Below, in pieces: positions 2,432-64,000 of a stretch of 64,000 nucleotides of DNA. Every line of letters starts with the position of its first letter. Position 1 is the stretch's first letter. Source of the DNA: Chrysomallon squamiferum. Lineage: Eukaryota; Mollusca; Gastropoda; Neomphalida; Peltospiridae. The position numbers were made by a program, and so were the translations under genes. Location: the NCBI GenBank assembly GCA_012295275.1, contig CM022673.1, positions 14,310,788 to 14,374,787 of the forward strand. Reading direction: 5' to 3'. Below the pieces are notes generated by a model. That model worked only from the letters and a program-made list of their open reading frames with translations. It searched no databases and was not told the origin of the DNA.

Positions 2432-4535
2432 ATGTTAAGTGGTAACCTCTTATCAGTTCTTTGTGGCGTTTGGTATCTTAGTAACGTTTGTAACAAACAC
2501 GACCAAGCAACGACGACACCAGCTGCTCCAACGACAAGCCATGATGATAGAGGGTTTGATCTGCTGTTTACAACAAACCGTGAAGAGATGTTGGACGTAC
2601 CAATTCAGTTTGAAAAGCGAGTACCTCGCTGGTTGAAAGGAACTTTGGTAAATGTATCACTTGTGTCGTTATGTAATGTAATATTTCTCTTTCAAACTAA
2701 TTTGGAAAATAGGTATAAAACAAAATAACTGAAGTGAATGAATAAGATTACTTCTAGAGATATTCTAACCAAAATGATGTAGCTAAATTGTTTCAGCCTG
2801 TGTTGGTGTTAAGTAAAGTAAGTTCTAGTACACTGTAACAGGTTTAAAATTATACAAGCGTCAACGTCGTTTTTTACATCTTGTCTGTTGACGACATTAG
2901 TTTAATTCAAACAGCAGTAAAATTTTACTTTTTTAACGCTTTGTTAAGTGTATATATATATAGATATCATACGTACATGCAAACATACACAAAATACATA
3001 GGTACGTACATGCACACATATATACATATGCATATGTATGCACACTCATATATCTATAACAAATAAATAAATAAATAAAATTCATATGATGACGGTGTAC
3101 TGTCTACACTCATTTAATAAAATATTTATTTAAAATTATTCAGATCCGTAATGGACTCGGAGTGTTTGAAAACGGAAACAGGAAGTTCAAACACGCCTTT
3201 GATGCTTTCAGCAAGTTGACAAGCTGGCGATTTGAGGGCAAGAAAAGAGCCTATTTTTCTACACGCCTGCTGCGGAGTCAGTTTTACAACGAATCCATGA
3301 AAACGAAGACGATAGCGCCATTTTTGATGTTTGAAACTGTGGAGCCTCCTTTCAACCAGATGCAGAAGATGGAGGCTCTGCTGAGAGGAATCGACAACTT
3401 GAACGTCAACGTTTATTCGTTCAACAAGAAAAAACAGTACGTCGTGTTGAGCGACTTCTGGAAGCTGTACGAGATAAATCCCAGAAATCTCACGACTGGG
3501 AACGCGATCTCCAATGCGCCGACTCGTGGAATGTTCGAGCCAAGATACTTTTTGAATTTTCTTAACCTAATATCCACAGCGCATCCTCTTCCGTTTCCGG
3601 GCACCGACTGGCATTTGTCTTTTCTCAGCAGCGTCAGTCTGTTGCCCTGGGTGAAGAGCGCAATGAACCTGATAAAAATAAAATCTGCAGAAGACAGAGA
3701 AATCATTGCTAGGTGGGAGGTTGATAAAGTTCCATACATGCATTCGTTTTCTGTCACGCAACACTACGCCGTTCTGTTTGCCTCCCCTTTTTACGTGAAC
3801 GTGCTAAAAATGGCGATGAAAGCCGAACCGTTTCGCTGTTTGGACTGGCACCCGGACGAAGAGACAACAGTATACGTCGTCAATCTGAACACTGGAAAGG
3901 TGCACACTCTGAAAACAGGGAACGTGTTTATCATGCATCATGTAAACGCGTATGAAGTGTCCATGGACCACTTGGTAGTGGACGTGTCAGCATACACAGG
4001 ACCGGAAGCTATGTATAACTTTGAAATGAAGATCATCATGGATCCAGTGGCGAGAAACAAATTCGATCCCCAGGCGCGCGTGCAGCGATACGACATATTC
4101 CTGGACAAACAGGAAATCAAAATGAAAACGTTCCCAGGGGGCCCGGATGCACCGTATACCCCCAACCTCGACCTGCCGACAATTAACGAAAAGTACCGAT
4201 CTCGACCATACTGCATCACGTACGGGGTGGTGATGAAGAGAGACAACTCGTCCCTGTCAGACGCGGCTCTCGTCAAGAAGAATCTATGCAATCACCTTGA
4301 CGACAAGGCCTGGTTTAAACCTTATCACTTCCCAGAAGAGGCGTGGTTCGTACCCGACCCCAAGGGAACACGGGAAGACGACGGCATACTGCTACTGCCT
4401 ATACTGAACGGACTGAAAAACCGATCGTTCCTGGCTATTATGGACGCCCGGACTCTGACGATTGTCAGTCGTGCTTATCTGCCCACTGTTCTCCCTTTCT
4501 CATTCCATGGACGACTTTTCCCCGAAGTTGTCTAA
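2432..4535 (+). CDS. BCO-like carotenoid cleavage oxygenase (two exons)
   Basis: Coding exons 2432-2647 and 3144-4535, joined by a GT-AG phase-0 intron, give 536 codons including the stop (535 aa). The junction rebuilds the family motif WLKGTL|IRNG near aa 67-76. This is the carotenoid oxygenase / RPE65 superfamily, non-heme Fe(II) enzymes that cleave the polyene chain of carotenoids or related apocarotenoids, for example to make retinal. The four histidines expected to bind iron are visible: TAHP (H219), MHSF (H272), the HH pair of IMHHVNAYE (337-338) and FHGRLF at the C-terminus (H527). The acidic EDDG motif is also present. Length matches the family. The first ~45 residues precede the conserved core and start with a hydrophobic stretch (aa 5-18), so a signal peptide or anchor is possible but unproven. 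BCO1, BCO2 and invertebrate paralogues cannot be separated by eye. The start is the first ATG in frame with the exon. Confidence 0.93.
2648..3143 (+). other. Intron 1 of the carotenoid oxygenase
   Basis: The donor is TTG|GTAAAT and the acceptor is TTATTCAG|ATC. The intron is 496 bases, AT-rich, and contains ATACAT/ACATA-type simple sequence around 2950-3060. Splicing keeps the frame (phase 0). Confidence 0.9.
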
Positions 4536-10226: not shown

Positions 10227-10825
10227 TTATAGATTCCGTAGTTGTTAGTTTTAAGATAGTATCCAAAGTTTGTCATCTTCTATTACTTAAACAAATAGTG
10301 GTACTTAGTGTGTGTTAGTGTCCTACTGAAAGTGAATAATTATAAAAAGATTCATCACAACTAATCAGATATAACAGACGAGTTTCTTGTCTGTTTATGA
10401 AAGATTGTACGAACAAGAAAAGTTAATGCACAATAAGAGTTGATTTTAAACAGAGATTAACTTGCTGTTTTATTACAGATTTACTACAGCGAGCTCTTCG
10501 ACTCATTGCCAATCATATAGACGGTGACTGGATAAAACTGTACCGAGAACTTCCCTTCTATCCACCACGGGGACAGGAAACCGTCAACATGGACATCGAC
10601 GACATCGCCAGCACATACATGCGACACACATCGGAGGAGCAGGCAAAACAGTGTTTGGCGCGGTGGAGACGCATGCACACACGTGCAACACTGGACGACA
10701 TTCGCACAGCGCTGTTGTCCATCCACAGGAAGGATCTAGTAGAACGTCTGGAGGAACACCTCCCCGTAACAGAAAGTTTCAGATGGAACCGAAGCAGTTC
10801 AGAACGGTTCACTTTCCAAAACTGA
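8649..10825 (+). CDS. Coiled-coil and death-domain protein (two exons)
   Basis: Exons 8649-10020 and 10479-10825 join in phase 1 across a GT-AG intron and give 572 aa plus stop. Residues 1-~240 are predicted helical and match no family I recognise. Residues ~240-445 are rich in E, K, R and L with heptad-like spacing (for example EKKREIQAKKTRDLQLK and later segments), so a long coiled coil is likely. Exon 2 encodes almost exactly a C-terminal death domain (aa ~458-555): DGDWIKLYRELPF resembles helices 1-2, EEQAKQCLARWRR plus ATLDDIRTAL resembles helices 4-5, and a final helix carries DLVERLEEHL. Death domains are homotypic adaptor modules in apoptosis and innate immune signalling. The full architecture points to a cytoplasmic adaptor or scaffold (inference). 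It has no caspase, DED, TIR or kinase domain. Start chosen at the first ATG of the open exon. Confidence 0.85.
10160..10223. repeat. (GA)n microsatellite inside the intron of the death-domain gene
   Basis: A pure GA run of about 64 bases. It lies within the 458-base intron (10021-10478), the only long GA array in this window that sits inside a gene. Confidence 0.95.
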
Positions 10826-14673: not shown

Positions 14674-15597
14674 TTAAAATGGATACCAACGACACGACTT
14701 CAAGTTGTCTCTTTTAACAAGCCTCTGGTTAATATTCAAATCTGTTATTTGTCTCATTTCTTCGTCTGTCAGTGTAAAGTCACAGACGTCAAAGTTTTCC
14801 TTGATGCGCGAAACAGTGCAGGATTTGACCATCACTGCGCAGCCCCGCTGTAACGTCCACTGAATAACAACTTGAGCCGCGGTTTTCGAATGTTTCCTCG
14901 ATATTCTTGTAATGACGTCATCCTCAAGAATATTGAAAGTCTTTTCTCCTTGATAATTGGCTACGCCTTTGGTGAGTGGAGAATATGACGTCACAGAGAT
15001 ACCTTGGCGATGGCAGAATGTCATCAGCTGTGTGTTGGTCAGGTACGGACTCATTTCGATCTGCAGATTGGCGGGTTTGTACTTCAGATCGTCTGCCTCT
15101 AGAAGCCTGGTTACTTGTTCTAAGTTAAAGTTGGATATTCCTATTGCACGTGCTTTTCCGCAGTCCACGAGTTTCTCCATCGCTCGCCAGGTGTCAAGAT
15201 AATCAGTATCTTCAAACACAACACCACGTGGAGTTTTTCTGAGCGACAGTGGCCAGTGCATTAAGTACAAATCAACGTAACTCGTCTGAAGCTGTTCCAG
15301 CGACTCCCTCATGCCCACCGGTACCTCCTCTGGGTCGTGGAAGTAGTTGGCGAGTTTTGTAGTAATAAAAACATCTCCTCTGTCTATCACTCCATCTTCT
15401 ATCTTCTCTTTAAGCGCACTCCCGACATCACCTTCACTTTCGTACACCCACGCAGTGTCGATATGACGATAACCGACGTCAACAGCAGACTTGACTGCGT
15501 CGTACATGCCTGGCAGACGATAGTTCCACGTGCCGAATCCCAACGCAGGCATCAAATGTCCGGAATTTAGTTTGATAGACGGAATCGAATTTGTCAT
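14674..15597 (-). CDS. Aldo-keto reductase, single coding exon
   Basis: A complete 307-residue reading frame of the aldo-keto reductase superfamily, NADPH-dependent (beta/alpha)8-barrel enzymes that reduce aldehydes and ketones in the cytosol. The catalytic tetrad is present: D47 and Y52 in YRHIDTAWVYE, K81 in FITTKL, H114 in LMHWP. GFGTW near the N-terminus, AIGISNFN in the middle and VMVKSCTVSRIKEN near the C-terminus match the family signatures, the last being a VMVKS variant of the usual IPKS. Length is normal. The exact substrate and AKR subfamily cannot be told from sequence alone. The coding part has no intron, unlike the other genes here, but a good acceptor lies 15 bases upstream of the ATG, so the gene probably has a 5'UTR intron and need not be a retrocopy. 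Confidence 0.95.
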   Translation of the reverse strand: MTNSIPSIKLNSGHLMPALGFGTWNYRLPGMYDAVKSAVDVGYRHIDTAWVYESEGDVGSALKEKIEDGVIDRGDVFITTKLANYFHDPEEVPVGMRESLEQLQTSYVDLYLMHWPLSLRKTPRGVVFEDTDYLDTWRAMEKLVDCGKARAIGISNFNLEQVTRLLEADDLKYKPANLQIEMSPYLTNTQLMTFCHRQGISVTSYSPLTKGVANYQGEKTFNILEDDVITRISRKHSKTAAQVVIQWTLQRGCAVMVKSCTVSRIKENFDVCDFTLTDEEMRQITDLNINQRLVKRDNLKSCRWYPF

Positions 15598-15612
15598 TTT
15601 ATGGAAATTTTA

Positions 15613-25063: not shown

Positions 25064-25225
25064 TAAGTCAAACTCATCTGCGCAGTGCATTCACTCGTAA
25101 GTCAAACTCATCTGCGCAGTGCATTCACTCGTAAGTCAAACTCATCTGCGCAGTGCATTCACTCGTAAGAGAACTATTCTGCGCAGTGCATTCACTCGTA
25201 AGTCAAACTATTCTGCACAGTCTGC
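25064..25225. repeat. 34-bp minisatellite with a CTGCGCAG palindrome, about 4.5 copies
   Basis: The unit is AAGTCAAACTCATCTGCGCA followed by GTGCATTCACTCGT. The first three copies are essentially identical; the last two replace CTCAT with CTATT. Each copy holds the 8-base palindrome CTGCGCAG next to TGCAT. The neighbouring sequence to 25320 repeats a looser theme (GGCGAGCT, GCATAAGGCGAGC). Confidence 0.93.
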
Positions 25226-29439: not shown

Positions 29440-29790
29440 CATCTGTATTCTGGTAACCTCAGTGACATCACTAAGGATATATCGTGACTTACAATTAACA
29501 TCAGTGACGTTGCGTAGGATATATTGTGACTTACAAATGTAGGACTTTTAAACTCAGTGACGTCGCGAAGGATAAATTTTGACTTACACAGTAGTATTTT
29601 TAACCTTAGTGACGTCACGTAGGATATACTGTGACTTACAATCGTCGCACTTTTATACTCAGTCACGTTGTGTCGGATTTATCGTAATTGAAAACTGTAA
29701 TCGTTTAACCTTAGTGACGTCATACAGGCGATTACGAATCAAGTCTTACAACTATATTAATTTTAATCTCAGTAATGTCAAGACAGATGT
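29440..29790. repeat. Second CRE-bearing degenerate repeat, ~60-bp unit
   Basis: Units read roughly AACCTTAGTGACGTCA, GTAGGATATA, CTGTGACTTACAA, then a variable TTTT stretch, with about five or six copies. TGACGTCA is perfect at 29610 and 29715; others are TGACATCA, TGACGTTG and TGACGTCG. Its unit differs from the 11-kb array, so the two are not simple copies of one another. Confidence 0.8.
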
Positions 29791-47021: not shown

Positions 47022-50000
47022 ATGAAAGCGATGGTAGGGGGTTGTTGTGTATGCTCTGATGAGCGAGGATGGGCTGAAAATCCACTTGTTTATTGCGACG
47101 GACATGGCTGTAATGTAGCCGTTCATCAAGGTTTGTAAACGTGTTTTTCTCGTGTTCTTTGGTGATGTCAGATCGTTTCGTTATGAAAGAATATCATATT
47201 ATTTTATCTCTTCAATTGTTACACGTTTAATTTACAGCGTGCTATGGTATAGTACAAGTTCCTACTGGACCATGGTATTGTAGAAAGTGTGAGAGTCAAG
47301 AAAGACAGGCTAGAGTGGTAAGTTGTACCACTACTTACCTGTTGTCGTTGAATCGTATTGTCGTACAAATATCCATGTTGCATAGTTAATATTTTCATAC
47401 AACGAACGGTATCTGAAGCACAGCTAAATATTTTATTTATTCATAATCTACTAATATCAACATTGTTTGATTGTCCATTTTAAAAATGTCTTTTATCTGG
47501 TGATTAATTTTACAGAAAAAAAGATGAAATATTTGAGATTTTTTACAATATTTTATACATCATTTTTCATATCAGTTTCAGTTTATAAATCTCTATGTCA
47601 TCAGGTAATTTTCATTTAATACTAAAATTGTGCAGGTTTTGTTTCTATTAAACAGTCTTGTGAAATAGAATCAGAAATGTGCTCCTCTTTGCATAATTGT
47701 TAGTGTTAAAATTGTATTTGATTTTATTATTTTTATAAAAATAATTCTTTATATAATATATATATTACTCATTTTTTCCATTTTGATAGAAATGTGAACT
47801 TTGTCCTCAAAAAGATGGTGCATTAAAACGAACAGACACTGGAGGTTTGTTTATATGTATTTAAAATTTAATATTAATATTAATCAAATCAAAACTTTTA
47901 TATATTATTTAACATTAGTATTAACAAAAAATAAATTTTCATATCAGGTAACAATAACTGTCATTTGCTATATTTGTCTAGCATATTAAAAGGAGAATAT
48001 TACAAATATCTAAATAAATAATCTTACTGAAGAAAAAAAAATGTAGTTGATTACTGTCACTAGCTTATGCAGAATTAAACATTTCAGTTTGACTGTATAA
48101 TTTATGTTGTTTCCTTTTCATTTATGTAGGTAATGATAATGTACAAGTAGGATTTCACAAGACATTTTATGACATTAAAAACTAACAAGTAATTTACTCT
48201 TTTTATTTAATTAATGTTTCTTGTAGGCTGGTGCCATGTTGTATGTGCTTTGTTTATTCCTGAAGCTTGGTTTGCCAATGTTCAAACGATGGAACCGATT
48301 GTGCTGAAGAATGTTCCTGGAGATCGGTTTAATAAGGTGATGAATAATGAGAATGTTTATTATAACAAAATCCATTAGAAAGATTGAGTTGAGTTGTTTT
48401 AAAATAATATAAAACCTATATTAGATTGGATTCTCCATAGTTCATGTTTAATACACATACCTTCATATGTCATATTTTGAAGCTGTTTATAAAGCAATAA
48501 CTTTAAACAAATATAGTTTAAATTTTAAAAAATCATCAAAACAAATGTTTCTCCAGCATTCTGAGATGTTTGAAAATTGATATGATATTTTTGTTTTATT
48601 TTACACAAAGTCGTACATAGAAAAACTAATATTATTTTTTAACAGGTTTGTTACATTTGTGAGGAACATGGGCGTGAGACCAAGGCCACCAGTGGTTCGT
48701 GTATGACATGTAACAAGAATGGATGTAAACAGAACTTTCATGTTACATGGTTAGTTACTTGTTACATTTGTAGTTTTGCTGAGCTGTTGTAATTTATAAC
48801 AATGCATTGGCTGTCATGTAAAGTGGTTGCACATTGTTATACAGCAGGGAAAACAAGCTTGTAAAATAAAATTTGAAATTTGAAATTTCTATGCAATATT
48901 AATAAAATTATTTTTATTTAAATTTAATTATTATTATTTTATTATTTTTTATTTTTTATAAAATTGGTTTGCTCCATAATTTAAAATTTATAATTACATA
49001 TGCAATGTGCATAAAATTATTTTCATTTAAATTTAAAAAAATTTATTATTTTTATTTTTGACTACTTTATGCATCTGATAACTAACATTAAGGATTATAT
49101 TAAAAATAATATATTTCATTTTCTATAGTGCACAAAGTCAGGGTTTACTTTGTGAAGAAGCTGGTAACTATGGTGACAATGTCAAATACTGTGGTTATTG
49201 TGTTTACCACTACAAGAAATTGGTAAGTTTATTATGTTTAAACAGCTTGCCTTTCTGGACATTTATTGAACAATAATTTCAGAACAGCTCATATTCAGTC
49301 TGAAGGAATTGTTACCTACATAGGCAAACATAGAAAACTTTTAAATATTTGTATTTAAATGGTTCACAAATAAATATTACTGACTTGTTTAGACCTGACT
49401 TTGAGTGATCTTCTTTTAAAAAAATTATATTTTATTGTGTGCTGAAATTACTTTTGTTAACATAAAATTGATTGTAACTGAGAATATGTAATTATCAACA
49501 ATTACTTTTACATTTAACATTCTCTTTGTTCTTCAGTATGAGTTTCTATGTATATTTACATGATTTATTGATTTATTTACTTTTTAATTTTTTCAGAAGA
49601 AAGACGCTAACATTAAAATAATTCCAGCATTTAAACCAATACCTTCGGAAAATGCTACCCCTGATTCCACGCCGGAGAAACACACATCATCACGGTCTGA
49701 CAGAGAGGAAAAGGTTTGTACTCACTTTATTAACATTAAACTGGTGAGGAAATATATGTTTTCCTCAAAACATATATAAACTGTCCCTCACAGCACATAT
49801 AGCCCACAGGATGACCAGACTAGCTGTGTTTATTAATTTTGTTTTATACAGTGGTAGATGACAGTGGTAATGTCTCGTGCTTTAATTTCAGTATCATGTA
49901 ACTGTTAGTTGAGAAATTGTACACGTCTTTACTTTACACTCACTATCAAGTTTTAATTTAACTTAATCTTTAAGGGGACACACTAGGCAAAAAATGACAA

Positions 50001-53000
50001 TATTTGAAATAAAATAGTTCAGAAAATGTACATAAAAAATATAATTTTTCAGATATATGTTTCATATTTTAAAAACTATTTGGGCTAGAGTTTTCAAATT
50101 TGGAATATATATAATTTAAAATATGAATTAAAAGCAATATTTTTTTTTTTTTAAATATTTCTTTTGAAGTATGTAAACAAAGACAAATTTCTTTCTTCTA
50201 TGTTGTAGAAGTACATGTCTGTTATGAACCCCAGCAGTTTGAATGATATTTATATATTGGTTTTGGTTGGAGAGGTTCATGAAATGGAGTACTGTAATAT
50301 TTAAAAAAAGCCAAAAATAAAAGTTATCATTTGTCATAAAAAAAAATAAACTAGTACTAGTTTCAGTTCTGTAACAGAAAAAATTGCAATTTTTTGTTTT
50401 TGCCACATGTGTTCCTTGGACACATTTATGTCCATATGTCCATTCATTTGTAATGTATTTTGAAATAACATAGCAATTATTAAGTTATGTTTTTTTATAA
50501 ATTTTTATTATAAATGTCATTTCACCCAGAATGTGAGAATGAAGAACTCTGATGTAATGGACCCATCTCTGTGTGGGAGGACGAATATTGGTTCCTGTAG
50601 TGGTCAGCGGCCGCAGATGACCCCACCAGCCATTCTCAACAACAGTGCTAATTCTGACTCATCTCTGAAGTCTCCAGACTTCGCAGGCTTCACAGAAGCC
50701 GACATTAAAAATCACATTACAAATGGTGTTGCTACTGAAACAAAATTTGACACTACTGTGACATCATCATCATCATCAACATTATCAGCTGTTTCAACAG
50801 CAACTGCCACTTCAACTCTGTCCAGTATATCAGCTGCAGAGCAAAAGTTTATTTTTGATGCTCGTTTTAAAGTGACGGAACCTAACAGCAGCAGTATGTT
50901 TACAAAGGTGGAAAAGTCGGTCAGTCCACACAGTAGTGCTAGTGACCGATCAAGTCCGAACCACGATGAGAACACTTCGTTCGCTGGTTCTTACGACACC
51001 TTCGCCACCAATGGACCAACAGCATCATCAGAAGACACAGGCACCACAAACAGCAAAACTAATGATTCAGAATTATACGGTTCTAAGCGTCAACGGTCAA
51101 GGTATTTATCTGAGCAAATACCTCAATTTATTTGCCATGCAGATCAGTACATAACTTAAGTGTGAAAATAAAGATAGTATTCTGTTACATATTGTTGATC
51201 AAACCATGATGAAATATTTCAGTTTTCATAATTATTGTTACAGATGTCTTTACTTAAACCTGCCTTTGTATAAAAAGTGTTTGTTAGAGATCTCTGTTAA
51301 ATTGTATTTGAATTTATAAAAACAGTTTAATTAATATTAGATATCTGTTCATAAACTGCATTTGAGTTCATAAAAACAATTAAATTTAGCTAAACTATAT
51401 ACAAGTTTATAACAAACAGTTTAATGGTTGTTAGAGATCTGTGTGTGTTGTAAAACTGTATTTGAGTTTATAAAAATAATTTAATTATTGTTACATATCT
51501 CTGTACACAGTTAAACCTGTATATGAGTTTATAAAAACAATTCAGTAGTTATTACTCTGTACATTGTTAAACCTGCATTTGACTTTTTATAAACAGTTTA
51601 ACTGTTACAGATCTTTGTACATAATTAAACCTGTATTTCAGTCTATAAAAACAGGTTTAATTATTGTTGCACATCTCTGTACATAGCTAAACATGTATTT
51701 GAGTACAGTTTAATTGTTGTTACAGATCTCAGGACACTGTGGATAAGAAGAAGGCAAAGCGAGGAAAGCAGATGCAGGCGTCTGCAGCAAAAGTGAAATC
51801 TGGGAAGGACAGTTCAGGGAAGACAGTTCTAACTCTGGGTGCAAAGAAACACACACAGAAGAGAAAGAACGGAGCAGCAAACAGTTCCGTTCAGTAAGTA
51901 ACTACACTGTCAGTGGTTAGTTTTACACTTCTGTTCAGTAAGTAACTACACTGTCAGTGGTTAGTTTTACACTTCTGTTCAGTAAGTAACTACACTGTCA
52001 GTGGTTAGTTTTACACTTCCATTCAGTAAGTAACTACACTGTCAGTGGTTAGTTTTACACTTCCGTTCAGTAAGTAACTACACTGTCAGTGGTTAGTTTT
52101 ACACTTCCGTTCAGTAAGTAACTACACTGTCAGTGGTTAGTTTTACACTTCTGTTCAGTAAGTAATTGTCAGTGGTTAGTTTTACACTTCTGTTCAGTAA
52201 GTAATTGTCAGTGGTTAGTTTTACACTTCTGTTCAGTAAGTAATTGTCAGTGGTTAGTTTTACACTTCTGTTCAGTACACTTCTGTTCAGTAAGTAACTG
52301 TCAGTGGTTAGTTTTGTTCAGTAAGTTTTACACTTCTGTTCAGTAAGTAACTGTCAGTGATTAGTTTTACACTTCTGTTCAGTAAGTAACTGTCAGTGGT
52401 TAGTTTTACACTTCTGTTCAGTAAGTAATTGTCAGTGATTAGTTTTACACTTCTGTTCAGTAAGTAATTGTCAGTGGTTAATTCTGTTCAGTGTAATTGT
52501 TGGTTATTTTACACTTCTGTTCAGTGTCAGTGGTTAGTTAGTTTTATTTTACTTCTGTTCAGTAAGTAACTGTCAGTGGTTAGTTTTACACTTCTGTTCA
52601 GTAAGTAATTGTCAGTGGTTAGTTTACACTTCTGTTCAGTAAGTAACTACACTCAGTGGTTAGTTTTACACTTCTGTTCAGTAAGTAACTACACTGTCAG
52701 TGGTTGGTTTTACACTTCTGTTCAGTAAATAATTGTCAGTGATTAGTTTTACACTTCTGTTCAGTAAGTAATTGTCAGTGGTTAGTTTTACACTTCTGTT
52801 CAGTAAGTAATTGTCAGTGATTAGTTTTACACTTCTGTTCAGTAAGTATCTACACTGTCAGGGTTAGTTTTACACTTCTGTTCAGTAAGTAATTGTCAGT
52901 GATTAGTTTTACACTTCTGTTCAGTAAGTATCTACACTGTCAGTGGTTAGTTTTACACTTCTGTTCAGTAAGTAATTGTCAGTGATTAGTTTTACACTTC

Positions 53001-56000
53001 TGTTCAGTAAGTAATTGTCAGTGGTTAGTTTTACACTTCTGTTCAGTAAGTAACTGTCAGTGGTTAGTTTTACACTTCTGTTCAGTAAGTAATTGTCAGT
53101 GATTAGTTTTACACTTCTGTTTAGTAAGTAATTTTCAGTGATTAGTTTTACACTTCTGTTCAGTAAGTAATTGTCTTCTGTTCAGTAAGTAACTGTCAGT
53201 GGTTAGTTTTACACTTCTGTTCAGTAAGTAACTGTCAGTGATTAGTTTTACACTTCTGTTTAGTAAGTAATTTTCAGTGATTAGTTTTACACTTCTGTTC
53301 AGTAAGTAATTGTCAGTGGTTAGTTTTATACTTCTGTTCAGTAAGTAACTGTCAGTGGTTAGTTTTACACTTCTGTTCAGTAAGTAATTGTCAGTGGTTA
53401 GTTTACACTTCTGTTCAGTAAGTAACTACACTCAGTGGTTAGTTTTACACTTCTGTTCAGTAAGTCAACTGTTCAGTAAGTAATTGTGTCAGTGGTTAGT
53501 TTTACACTTCTGTACACAGTTTTACAGTCAGTGTGGTTAGTTTTACACTTCTGTTCAGTAAATAATTGTCAGTGATTAGTTTTACACTTCTGTTCAGTAA
53601 CTAATTGTCAGTGGTTAGTTTTACACTTCTGTTCAGTAAGTAATTGTCAGTGATTAGTTTTACACTTCTGTTCAGTAAGTATCTACACTGTCAGGGTTAG
53701 TTTTACACTTCTGTTCAGTAAGTAATTGTCAGTGATTAGTTTTACACTTCTGTTCAGTAAGTATCTACACTGTCAGTGATTAGTTTTACACTTCTGTTCA
53801 GTAAGTAATTGTCAGTGGTTAGTTTTACACTTCTGTTCAGTAAGTAACTGTCAGTGGTTAGTTTTACACTTCTGTTCAGTAAGTAATTGTCAGTGGTTAG
53901 TTTTATACTTCTGTTCAGTAAGTAACTGTCAGTGGTTAGTTTTACACTTCTGTTCTGTAAGTAATTGTCAGTGGTTAGTTTTACACTTCTGTTCAGTAAG
54001 TAACTACACTCAGTGGTTGGTTTTACACTTCTGTTCAGTAAATAATTGTCAGTGATTAGTTTTACACTTCTGTTCAGTAACTAATTGTCAGTGGTTAGTT
54101 TTACACTTCTGTTCAGTAAGTAATTGTCAGTGATTAGTTTTACACTTCTGTTCAGTAAGTATCTACACTGTCAGGGTTAGTTTTACACTTCTGTTCAGTA
54201 AGTAATTGTCAGTGATTAGTTTTACACTTCTGTTCAGTAAGTATCTACACTGTCAGTGGTTAGTTTTACACTTCTGTTCAGTAAGTAATTGTCAGTGATT
54301 AGTTTTACACTTCTGTTCAGTAAGTAATTGTCAGTGGTTAGTTTTACACTTCTGTTCAGTAAGTAACTGTCAGTGGTTAGTTTTACACTTCTGTTCAGTA
54401 AGTAACTGTCAGTGATTAGTTTTACACTTCTGTTCAGTAAGTAAGTTTTACACTTCTGTTCAGTAAGTAATTGTCAGTGGTTAGTTTTACACTTCTGTTC
54501 AGTAAGTAACTGTCAGTGGTTAGTTTTACACTTCTGTTCAGTAAGTAACTGTCAGTGATTAGTTTTACACTTCTGTTCAGTAAGTAATTGTCAGTGGTTA
54601 GTTTTACACTTCTGTTCAGTAAGTAATTGTCAGTGGTTAGTTTTACACTTCTGTTCAGTAAGTAACTGTCAGTGATTAGTTTTACAGTTCTGTTCAGTAA
54701 GTAATTACACTGTCAGTGATTAGTTTTACAGTTCTGTTCAGTAAGTAATTACACTGTCAGTGATTAGTTTTACACTTCTGTTCAGTAACTAATTGTCAGT
54801 GGTTAGTTTTACACTTCTGTTCAGTAAGTAATTGTCAGTGATTAGTTTTACACTTCTGTTCAGTAAGTAATTGTCAGTGATTAGTTTTACACTTTTGTTC
54901 AGTAAGTAATTGTCAGTGATTAGTTTACACTTCTGTTCACTAGATGTCATATTAGTATGTGTAATATCAGTATATATAACATCTGTGTGCAATATACATA
55001 CATACAGTATCAGTATGGGTAATATTTATATACATAATAACAGTATATGTAATTTCACTATATTTAATACTGGTAGTTCTGTAATGAGTTTTGTCTGTAT
55101 GGCAGATCTGTTCTTTGAGTGTGTTCTTGTACAGTGATTTCACATTCCAACCAGTGCATCAAATACTGCTTTTACTTGTTACGCTTAAATTTTAAAAATA
55201 ATGTTTTTGTTACAGACCTACAAGTTTAAGTAGTACCAGTGTGTTCGGTGGGTCACCCTATTTCCAAAGTCTCACAGCTCCTGGTCCAGTCTCTCTCTCC
55301 ACTCAGGGTAAGTGTGATACTGTACATCCTCTCTGCATGTAAGGAATGATGTGTGTGTTACCTCTGTCTGAGTGTAAAGAGTGATGTGTGTTATCTCTCT
55401 CTCTGTTTAACAAAAGGTTGAAGAACTTGTCATTCTCTGTTCTTTCTCCGTCCATAAAATAAAATATTTGAAATTATTCTCTTTTTTTTTTTTGTCTCTG
55501 TAGACTATGATTTATTTATTTATATATGTGACAGGTTCTACAATGACATCATCATCCAGGGTGGTGTCTGGAGCGGGGGATGCCAGTAACACGGGCGAGA
55601 CAAATGATGTTGTTAATGGTATCAGCAGGTTTGTTTGTCCACCCAAAATCTTCCCCTCACAGCAGAAACCAGCGGATTCTAACACAGGGTAAAATAAAAT
55701 AAATTTTTATTTTTTATTTTTATTAATTCAAAAATGTGTAATGGAAATATTTCACACAAATCTTAATAGATACAGCTTTTAAGTTAAACTATTTAATTTA
55801 AGATTTTGGTAAATGTTACTGGGACTAATTTGTATAATGTGTTTATTTTGTTTCTTTGGGTATTACTGTGGACAGTTCATATTATGTCAGTAGGAAGATA
55901 TATATAAAAAATTGCTGTTAATGAATGTCTCTTTGTGTGACAGTAGCAAGCATTATTAAGAACTAAGCTGCCATAATCACTCTATTTTATTTAATTCATA

Positions 56001-58484
56001 TATCTACAAAAAAAAAAATCTTCAATTTTTTTTTTTATTTTCTTATTTTTTCAAAATAAATGTCCATTCATTTGTTGGTTTTGTTACACTGTTAGAGAAC
56101 ACACACACACATTGCTGTATTGACATGTGAAATATTTACTCAGTAATTCATTGTCTGTGTTTCCAGGTTTCCACAGACGATGGAGCAGTTGTTAGAGAGA
56201 CAGTGGGAGCAAGGTTCTCAGTTTCTAATGGAACAAGGACAGCATTTTGACAGTAATTTTACTTTCACATCACAGTATTAGAATTTGATTCACAGACTAT
56301 GTTGACTGTTAACATATAACAACTCATTATAGTTAAACTGTTATATATTAAACTGTTACAGTTAAACTATTATTATAATTTGTTTTACAATTAAATTGAT
56401 GTGTTTGAGTGTGTGTATAAAGGAATAACAATTATGTACATTTTTACATGAATTACAATTAACTGTTATGTTTACAGTCAAACTGTGTAGTGAATTACAT
56501 TTAAGTGTTATGTTTAGTTATACTATGTAGTGAATTACAGTTTATTTTTAAGTTTACAGTCAAACTGTCTAGTGAATTACAGTTAAGTGTTATGTTTATG
56601 GTCAAACTGTGTAGTGAATTACAGTTAAATGTTATGTTTACAGTCAGACTGTATTGAGTTACAGTTTATTGTTATGTTTACAGTCAAACTATAATGAATT
56701 ACAGTTAAGTGTTATGTTTACAGTTGCCTCTCTGTTGAACTGTTTAAATCAGCTGAAGAGTGAGAATCAGAAGTTAGAGGAGTATGTGAAAAACCTCACT
56801 GACCGGCGTGACCACTTGCTGACCGTCAACGCTCGGCTATCTCTGCCTTTCTCCAACATCAACAACATCGTCAACACATCACTTCCTGACTCATCTGACC
56901 ACAAGGTAGATTTAGTTTTTTTTATCATTTATTACTGGTTTTTAATTAAAGCAGAATAAAAGTGTTTAATTTTTTTACTTAAAACTGACATTAGTACATA
57001 TTAATTTGTTATAAGAAAAAATATATAAATTTAGAAAGTTAATTTAGGTTAACCCTTTCCTTGCAATAAGGAGATAGGTCTGTTAATTTGCTGTTAATTG
57101 CAGAAAGCAGATTTACCCTCAGCCAGTATGTGTCCTGACAGCTTTGTTGATTTTGCCAGGAGATAATTTAATTACATACTGAAAGTTTTGAGAATGGTTT
57201 AATACAAATATTACTGTAATTTCATTTTTGACACTGTCTTTGTTACAGTGTTTGAGACCATGAAGAAAAATAAAAGATAATTGTTGACAGTTAGAATTAA
57301 ACTGATTATCAACACTGATATTTTTTGTTTTCTGCAGGATCCAAGCTGTCCCATTTTAAGTCCGGCCATAATTGACAGTGTCCCCAGTCCTGTAGGTTAG
57401 TGAACATTTCACTTAGAACTGTTTTACTTTCTCCTTTACTCATGTAAATAATACATTTTTTGAAAATCATTGAATTTTCATTCTTTCTTCTGTATTACTA
57501 TATCAGTTAAAATTATCAGATGGATGCAGGTACGTGTGTTTTCGTGTGTGAGTGTTTAGGTATATGTTTTTGTGTATACATTGTGTGTGTGTGTGTGTGA
57601 CTAACAATTTTATTTCATCCAGTCAGTAATTAAACTGAAATTCACTGAAATGATAATTTTTCACAACAGAAAACTGACTTTAGAAACTTGTAGATAAATT
57701 ATTATTATTATTATTATTAAACTTTGGTTCTTATGTGATGTTACAACTTATGTTTGCTGTTTCAGAGTCTGATTCTGTGAGTGTTTACTCACATTCTAAG
57801 ATGTCCGACATCTCTCTCACTTCAGATTCCTCCGTCTCAACTAGGGTAAGATTTTCAAACTGTTTAATCATTTGGTAACGTGTTATGTTTAAAATTAACG
57901 TCAGTCTTCATGTGACGAATGGTGTAATAGACAGTTTTAATATTCCAGTTTGGTAAACTGTTTATTCAGACCTCACTTGACTGTTCTTTTTAACAGAAAT
58001 TAATGTTGTGAACTGAATTATATTTAATTAAAATACATTATTATTGAAAATGGTTTTAATTAATTAGCTTTTATAGAGTGCTTCCAGTCTCATTAAATGA
58101 AACTGCCTTTATAGACAAATGTAGCATATCTTTTCTAGATATATACACTCATATACACACAGATATAGATATAAATATAGATTTAAATGTAGTTATATCT
58201 ATAGATATAGATATATATAGACATATGTAGGTATAAATATAAATATAGATGTAATAGGTATATAGATACATGAATGGATAGATACAGATATATATAAACA
58301 CAAAGAATTATTTTGATGATCTGTTTTTTTATCAGTTTTATTCTTTCTGTTTCAGGACCCTTCATCTCAAGTTTTGAGCTCCTCGACAAACTCTCCACTG
58401 ACCAGTTCCCAGTTCTCATCTGGTCACTCTCTCACTAACAGTACAAGTGCTATCAGGGACACACAGACAAAAGACAAAACGTGA
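47022..58484 (+). CDS. MLLT10: AF10/AF17 (MLLT10/MLLT6) orthologue, PHD-zinc knuckle-PHD and leucine-zipper chromatin factor, 16 exons
   Basis: Exons: 47022-47130, 47238-47317, 47790-47844, 48227-48336, 48646-48749, 49129-49222, 49597-49713, 50530-51101, 51726-51893, 55216-55307, 55535-55688, 56167-56252, 56724-56905, 57338-57395, 57766-57845, 58356-58484. They total 2190 bases (729 aa plus stop) with every GT-AG junction in phase. Residues ~7-185 form the PHD1-zinc knuckle-PHD2 module (GGCCVCSDERGWAENPLVYC at the start, then KCELCP and CYICEEHG), which in vertebrate AF10 reads histone H3 unmodified at K27. Exon 8 is Ser/Thr-rich with FTEADIKNH; exon 9 is Lys/Arg-rich. Residues ~556-641 carry the octapeptide motif EQLLERQW and the leucine zipper that recruits DOT1L in vertebrates. 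Nuclear, linked to H3K79 methylation (family knowledge). It is shorter than human AF10 (over 1000 aa) and lacks the Gln-rich tail. AF10 and AF17 are paralogues in vertebrates; this looks like the pre-duplication gene. The ATG matches the vertebrate start. Confidence 0.96.
48880..49080. repeat. Two-copy ~130-bp duplication within AF10 intron 5
   Basis: The words ATGCAAT, ATAAAATTATTTTTATTTAA and TTTATTATTTTTATTTTT occur twice (from about 48891 and 49001). AT-rich and modestly diverged. Confidence 0.55.
49973..50416. mobile_element. Possible MITE-like insertion in AF10 intron 7
   Basis: The left end AAGGGGACACACTAGGCAAA and, inverted, the right end AAGGAACACATGTGGCAAAA are similar but not identical. 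The ~440-base interior is AT-rich and non-coding, and intron 7 is longer than most of its neighbours. No clear target-site duplication. Weak call. Confidence 0.3.
51235..51730 (+). repeat. Minisatellite in AF10 intron 8 carrying the exon 9 acceptor, ~9 copies of ~60 bp
   Basis: Units read approximately TTGTTACAGATCTCTGTACA, TAGTTAAACCTGTATTTGAG, then TTTATAAAAACAGTTTAA. The last copy supplies the genuine acceptor TTGTTACAG|ATCTCAGG at 51725/51726, and earlier copies hold near-identical words (TTGTTACAGATGTCT near 51240, CTGTTACAGATCTTT near 51608, TTGTTAGAGATCTGT near 51430). The unit therefore spans the intron/exon boundary. Confidence 0.88.
51885..54942 (+). repeat. 3.05-kb minisatellite in AF10 intron 9 made of 5'-splice-site copies
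   Basis: It starts inside the last nine bases of exon 9 (TTCCGTTCA) and continues to about 54942. Units of 38-44 bases read CACTTCTGTTCAGTAAGTAA, an optional CTACACT, then TTGTCAGTGGTTAGTTTTA; roughly 75 copies. Each has the donor-type word TTCAGTAAGT, identical to the authentic exon 9 donor CA|GTAAGT. Two copies near the exon keep the exonic spelling TTCCGTTCAG exactly and another reads TTCCATTCAG; distal ones read TTCTGTTCAG. Longer units (with CTACACT) dominate next to the exon, which suggests waves of local expansion. Confidence 0.96.
56452..56723 (+). repeat. Minisatellite in AF10 intron 12 carrying the exon 13 acceptor, ~6 copies of ~40 bp
   Basis: Units read GTTATGTTTACAGTCAAACT, GTGTAGTGAATTACAGTTAA, GT. 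The genuine acceptor GTTATGTTTACAG|TTGCC (exon 13 starts at 56724) is the last copy. Earlier copies end in TTTACAG or TTTATGG at about 56477, 56556, 56599, 56642 and 56683. Confidence 0.9.
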
Positions 58485-63398: not shown

Positions 63399-64000
63399 TT
63401 AACATCCAGGATATTCAAACACTGCAGCAGCACCCATTCCAGTCCCTACACACATTGATACCACTCCATAACTCCTACAAAACAAAAACATAACAGCACT
63501 GTATTTCAATTTTAAATTATGTTTTTTATATATTATTTTTAATTTAATAATTTAAAAAAAAAAAAAATTCTCTGATATTATTATAAAGTTAAAAATAAAA
63601 ATATATTTTTAATCACTCACTAATATAAAAAAAAAAATTTTTTTATTCTTTATATATTAGTTTAACCCTTAAGTTTTATTTTGTTAATATATGTGAGTAT
63701 TGACAATTAATTTCAAGAATATAATAATTATCAAAAAATTTTTTTTTTTTATTTTTTAAAAAGATTTAGGACATTTATAATGGAAATTCTCGTCACCTTT
63801 TTCCTCTACGTTTCAGTTCATGCAGTAATGTTGCAATCTGCCTCACCCCAGTGCAGCCCAGGGGGTGACCCAAGGCCACAGCCCCGCCCTTAGGATTCAC
63901 TTTCTCATATGGAATGCCTAGTTTTTCAATACAGTAAACAGCCTGGCTAGCAAACGCCTCATTTATTTCAAACACATCAATGTCGTTTATAGTGAGTCCT
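63399..64000 (-). CDS. ACAA1: Peroxisomal 3-ketoacyl-CoA thiolase, last two exons (5' end outside window)
   Basis: On the minus strand, exon 64000-63797 and last exon 63474-63399 join by a GT-AG intron in phase 2. The window holds the C-terminal ~93 residues: [17 protein letters not shown], then [25 protein letters not shown], then [20 protein letters not shown] and YPGC before the stop. The catalytic histidine is in GHPLG and the catalytic cysteine in CVGTGMG. The wording is much closer to ACAA1 (peroxisomal beta-oxidation, cleaving 3-ketoacyl-CoA to acetyl-CoA plus shortened acyl-CoA) than to mitochondrial ACAA2 or ACAT. The C-terminus lacks a PTS1, as expected because this enzyme uses an N-terminal PTS2, which is outside the window. 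It converges with AF10. Confidence 0.95.

Follow-up and report, generated by a model that had tools for sequence, protein, structure and literature searches.

In human 6-16 a minisatellite reportedly provides multiple splice donors, as the title of a 1995 paper by Turri et al. has it. In the sections of the later literature that we drew on, the minisatellite of the same gene (IFI6, also 6-16 or G1P3) is described as supplying multiple splice donors (PMC4526556). A variable number tandem repeat (VNTR) in intron 18 of human ABCA7 includes the exon-18 donor as its first bases, is built from 25-bp units and is present in about 12 to 427 copies; according to the parts of that report used here, one unit is retained in 2 ± 1% of transcripts regardless of VNTR length, longer VNTRs go with more exon 19 skipping, and expression is 33% lower between extreme allele pairs (PMC5954066). 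For human duplicated genes, 27 intron modifications have been ascribed to internal tandem repeats at exon-intron boundaries in the portion of the study consulted (PMC2812944). Here we analyze a window of 64,000 nucleotides from the gastropod Chrysomallon squamiferum (contig CM022673.1, assembly GCA_012295275.1), in which intron 9 of an AF10/AF17 gene is filled almost completely by tandem copies of its own 5' splice site. The first-pass annotation of this DNA, made from the letters alone, had pointed to the array and knew of no named system like it, a claim that fails because ABCA7 and IFI6, as far as the consulted text goes, have the same arrangement. Our best reading, to which we assign a probability of roughly two in three, is that the array is a donor-site minisatellite of the ABCA7/IFI6 kind, a tolerated tandem duplication of an exon-intron border with possible effects of its length. 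Its anatomy, its likely founder and its effects on the reading frame form the established part of this reading. A tolerated expansion, one of the options listed earlier, is supported.

Judged by its protein matches, the gene is the mollusc orthologue of AF10/AF17 (MLLT10/MLLT6), which bears out the earlier identification as AF10. The gene model joins 16 exons by open reading frame, with exon 7 set by hand. Among the best 120 of 2240 protein matches the closest is the 'AF-17-like' protein of the vent snail Gigantopelta aegis, with 78% identity in the alignment; its lineage puts the source near Neomphalida. The N-terminal PHD module is matched by the PDB AF-10 chain 5dag (query residues 1-187, E 3.2e-107), and a C-terminal coiled region that is conserved in the G. 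aegis alignment is matched by the AF-10 chain 6jn2 (residues 555-623, E 1.1e-17). We take this coiled region of the 729-residue protein to be the OM-LZ, which binds DOT1L. The features around the donor are as follows, with a slash marking splice junctions here and below:

47022-58484, + strand: AF10/AF17 gene of MLLT10 type; its 16 coding exons form a single open frame of 729 aa (gene model and protein matches)
51726-51893, + strand: exon 9, 168 bp, ending in phase 2 (gene model and protein alignment)
51890-51899, + strand: authentic donor TTCA/GTAAGT, which is unit 1 of the array (frame, G. aegis junction, U1 pairing)
55216-55307, + strand: exon 10, 92 bp (gene model)

Exon 9 joins exon 10 at 55216 in phase 2, and the G. 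aegis protein aligns without a gap over the junction (SVQ/P). On this evidence of frame and protein alignment, the donor at 51893/51894 is the authentic one. That it also forms the first unit of the minisatellite, as proposed in the first pass, is borne out by the open frame, the G. aegis junction and the splitting of the array into units.

The array itself is confirmed by Tandem Repeats Finder (TRF), which returns arrays of 39-bp period at 51908-54939, by splitting at the donor and by the density of GTAAGT relative to shuffled sequence. Of intron 9, which is 3,322 bp long, it occupies 3,047 bp. Cutting it at the donor gives 80 anchors, or 78 units once two false splits are merged; most units measure 39 or 44 bp, and 69 of the 78 fall between 38 and 44 bp. 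From 51881 to 54940 there are 69 GTAAGT and 66 CAGTAAGT. This corresponds to 22.6 GTAAGT per kb of array versus 0.23 per kb for the + strand elsewhere in the window (about 100-fold), while 200 mononucleotide shuffles of the array contain 1.04 on average and 4 at most. In exon 9, 11 of the 13 terminal bases equal the majority base of the unit, and identity falls to 0.01 at the next base, so the array begins at 51881. The initial estimate of about 75 copies at 51885-54942 is accordingly corrected to 78 units at 51881-54940, with 69 GTAAGT remaining, and the exonic share of the unit is 13 bases, not the ~9 proposed.

51881-54940, + strand: donor-site minisatellite, covering the 13 terminal bases of exon 9, its authentic donor and the tandem units; 3.06 kb, 78 units
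51890-52153, + strand: founder-like sub-array; its six 44-bp units do not differ in their first 42 bp and hold the TTCCGTTCA/TTCCG states of three of the 80 anchors
52597-54432, + strand: higher-order blocks of ~480 bp, outer limits set by eye

Beyond the first six units, 39-bp units and the ~480-bp blocks dominate the interior; stretches of 200 bases recur there without a mismatch after 480 and 1313 bp and with one mismatch (199 of 200) after 833 bp. On the reverse strand the 39-bp units at 53757-54080 open as 13-residue repeats (YLLNRSVKLTTDN-like), giving an open reading frame (ORF) of 108 aa; this is expected because the unit is divisible by three, and the ORF bears no sign of coding.

The states of the anchors point to the founder. 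The end of exon 9 reads TTCCGTTCA, and the same word is found in 3 of the 80 anchors (units 1, 5 and 6); TTCCATTCA (TTCCA) occurs once, in unit 4, TTCTGTTCA (TTCTG) occurs 68 times, and eight anchors differ otherwise. TTCTG and TTCCA are the two CpG-decay products of the exon state. Only early units still have the CpG, which makes the end of exon 9 the likely founder. The exon 9 border is moreover conserved as protein in G. aegis, which together with the anchor states argues that the array most likely grew from the exon border and not the reverse. Without the array, intron 9 would be 275 bp long; the other 14 introns measure 107-816 bp. We propose that a segment made of the 13 terminal exon 9 bases and the adjoining ~31 bases of intron 9 underwent tandem duplication and then amplification, initially as 44-bp units and later mostly as 39-bp units and ~480-bp blocks. 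Such a duplication would be tolerated because a copy that spans the border leaves the exon and one donor intact.

To compare the donor copies, we predicted pairing with the 5' end of U1 small nuclear RNA (snRNA). The authentic donor pairs at -7.2 kcal/mol, a value at the median for the 15 donors of the gene, and predicted pairing is at least as strong as this at 66 of the 80 anchors, unit 1 included. In prediction, the array thus does offer the dozens of equal-strength donors that had been claimed, and these matching donors are a natural and extreme test case for the choice of a single donor by the spliceosome. The choice has consequences for the protein: use of any of the 79 downstream anchors places an in-frame TAA directly after exon 9, with a stop after residue 470, and skipping of exon 10 leads to a stop after residue 487, so that only donor 1 retains the C-terminal OM-LZ (residue 558 onward).

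The composition of the locus would fit exon definition ending at donor 1. The purine fraction is 0.68 in exon 9 versus 0.43 in the array, and a 4-mer exon score gives 0.98 for exon 9, compared with 0.06-0.96 for the 15 other exons and -1.24 to -0.34 for the 14 other introns. Exon 9 contains GAA 10 times, GAG 3, AGA 8 and GGA 7 times, and all four have a count of 0 in the 3,047-bp array; AAG occurs 11 times in exon 9 and 70 times in the array. If exon definition acts on this purine-rich exon, it would favor the first donor, the sole productive one. Leakage to nearby copies would yield transcripts with the immediate TAA, to be decayed or translated into a protein lacking the OM-LZ, and, if ABCA7 is a guide, greater array length may raise exon 10 skipping and lower AF10 expression. 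RNA folding of five pieces gave z scores of -2.9, -2.6 and -2.1 near the exon and of -1.8 and -1.0 further in. In a prediction without its own control, the end of exon 9 (51867-51893) folds into a hairpin of 9 bp immediately ahead of donor 1; the downstream units lack this hairpin, and it could help mark the first donor.

We also asked whether units might act as acceptor and donor at once and so produce pseudo-exons. An acceptor matrix built on 15 acceptors gives the array's 77 TTCAG sites a median score of -7.6 (from -9.8 to 3.1), versus 11.8 for the left-out exon 10 acceptor; the authentic exon 2 acceptor, likewise left out, scores -7.3. The TTCAG sites score low, but since one authentic acceptor is equally low, we regard pseudo-exons as no more than unlikely. 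Recursive (ratchet) splicing would call for AG/GT sites; AGGT is absent from the array, which in this sense is not a recursive one.

The same gene contains two further minisatellites, and these run into authentic acceptors:

51238-51733, + strand: intron 8 acceptor array; its ~56-bp unit, with TTGTTACAG/ATCTC, is present in six or seven diverged copies, the last being the exon 9 acceptor
56449-56724, + strand: acceptor array of intron 12, six copies at a spacing of 40-42 bp with TTTACAG/T, the last being the exon 13 acceptor

The final copy of the intron 8 array holds the acceptor of exon 9 (51725/51726) and extends about five bases into the exon, and one BLAST hit spans this acceptor (E 0.002). 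These minisatellites at the acceptors of exons 9 and 13 are new here and, like the stop behind every downstream donor, had gone unmentioned in the first pass; no acceptor array of this type was described among the titles listed by a narrow literature search, which is no proof of absence. Acceptors were scored with matrices built without the site in question, and 13 non-authentic sites were listed per intron (31 and 28 AG in total). Three upstream sites in intron 8 (51244, 51290 and 51611) outscore the authentic acceptor, as do 56478, 56560, 56644 and 56684 within the intron 12 array and 56362 outside it. All 26 listed non-authentic sites would give a stop.

In the preferred reading, both acceptor arrays arose in the same way as the donor array, on the opposite side of the exons. 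All three arrays among the gene's TRF rows with a score of at least 100 contain a splice site. A random seed would cover a splice site in ~4-5% of cases, which for three of three amounts to ~8e-5, and when each array is slid within its intron it lies flush at either end in 1.5%, 0.7% and 1.0% of placements, though both calculations were framed after the data had been seen. We tentatively suggest, as a doubtful extension of the duplication reading, that splice sites seed minisatellites in this genome: borders would grow arrays because only the copy nearest the exon is used and duplications at the edge are invisible to selection, and introns would lengthen inward from their splice sites. Since units 1 to 6 agree at all of 42 bp, the working donor included, this donor would therefore take part in the turnover of the array and, being replaceable from it, would constitute a self-renewing splice site. 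Three splice-site arrays in one gene make minisatellite seeding and intron growth testable genome-wide. A proneness of the unit DNA to form hairpins was considered as the seed and rejected, the four unit consensuses having mean z scores across rotations between -0.43 and 0.68; for the donor border itself z is -1.8, and among 295 background windows 6.1% lie below -2 and 10.5% below -1.5.

Several points weigh against the reading of the arrays as duplicated borders of which only the exon-proximal copy serves. At the exon 13 acceptor (56723/56724) only about one exon base is common to the array, and no BLAST hit spans this acceptor into the exon. The donor units are not cleanly intronic, averaging -0.27 in the 4-mer score (n = 67), between the exons and the other introns. 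Predicted accessibility fails to single out donor 1, as 14 of 69 sites are more open. Finally, equal donors in competition often favor the one nearest the acceptor; in DOK7, as far as the available description goes, the donor nearest the acceptor wins, but it is also the stronger one.

Other explanations make the array more than tolerated. The downstream donors could form a regulated poison extension, a controlled switch, tuned by array length, to mRNA decay or to a truncated AF10 that keeps the PHD fingers and loses the OM-LZ. The stop at residue 470, ahead of the OM-LZ, at 79 of 79 downstream anchors would suit such a switch, as would predicted U1 pairing that equals donor 1 at most of them and the retention of one ABCA7 unit at about 2%; yet in the consulted part of that study retention is unchanged by length (PMC5954066). 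In the array itself we see no sign of selection on the donor copies, substitutions affecting 3 of the 9 donor columns versus 10 of the 30 other majority columns, so that donor columns are kept no better than the rest of the unit, and we consider a regulated switch unlikely. The same lack of special conservation speaks against the proposal, made in the first pass, that the array is a U1 sink or a timing device. In such a role the tandem donors would hold many U1 small nuclear ribonucleoproteins and thereby shield the transcript from early polyadenylation (telescripting) or slow its splicing. The roughly 100-fold excess of GTAAGT is what such a sink would have, but neither the array nor the tail of intron 9 contains an AATAAA or ATTAAA to protect from (2.35 and 2.86 per kb, respectively, in the other introns), and predicted RNA structure leaves few sites open (median 0.011). 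We found no evidence in support of this role and give it hardly any credence.

Seeding of minisatellites by splice sites as a general habit of the genome, with borders repeatedly spawning arrays and introns growing from their ends, is quite improbable as a rival to the preferred reading. It draws on the finding of authentic splice sites in three arrays of this gene and on the post hoc figure for three of three random seeds, but this is a single gene, 28 of its 30 splice sites, the exon 13 acceptor among them, have no copy in the spanning BLAST test, and a fourth, AGATAT-rich simple array in intron 15 (58163-58257, TRF score 98) contains no splice site. An array expanded or collapsed by the assembler is very improbable: the exact recurrence of 200-bp blocks at 480 and 1313 bp would be in keeping with such an error, but the array mixes many types of unit as a mosaic, the units differ and are organized in the ~480-bp blocks, and a distinct sub-array adjoins the exon. 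The tolerated duplication of the exon 9 border remains our preferred reading.

Elsewhere in the window, two minisatellites, at 25064-25221 (+ strand) and 29495-29722 (- strand), contain 3 GTAAGT each; no adjoining gene was seen and their flanks are unannotated. Four ORFs with Pfam matches were noted:

3093-4532, + strand: RPE65-type carotenoid oxygenase, 480 aa, no stop
10427-10822, + strand: Death domain
14677-15609, - strand: aldo/keto reductase, 311 aa, no stop
63796-63999, - strand: thiolase C-terminus

By the anatomy of its sequence, the donor array belongs to the ABCA7/IFI6 kind of donor-site minisatellite; the likenesses and differences that follow are drawn from the consulted portions of the human studies. 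Like the ABCA7 VNTR, it directly flanks the exon, has the authentic donor in its first unit and carries many donor copies; both fall within a size range of hundreds of bp to several kb, and in both use of the next donor leads to a premature stop. Its units are likewise of minisatellite size with intact donors (69 of 78 units of 38-44 bp, 69 GTAAGT). Unlike the snail unit, which includes exon bases, the 25-bp ABCA7 unit begins at the GT. Length polymorphism, exon skipping and effects on expression are measurements made on ABCA7, whereas the snail array is known from the sequence of one haplotype. With IFI6 it shares a minisatellite that offers one exon several donors; the downstream units of IFI6 are used, giving three mRNA species, while those of the snail are predicted donors. 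The repeats in human duplicated genes are also minisatellites at exon-intron borders, but they average four units of 30 bp, lie in segmental duplications, form novel introns and were found by comparison of paralogues (PMC2812944), and the splicing changes are a feature of the human cases. Seen against these systems, the AF10/AF17 array would be a molluscan case of the ABCA7/IFI6 kind, with 69 intact copies of GTAAGT.

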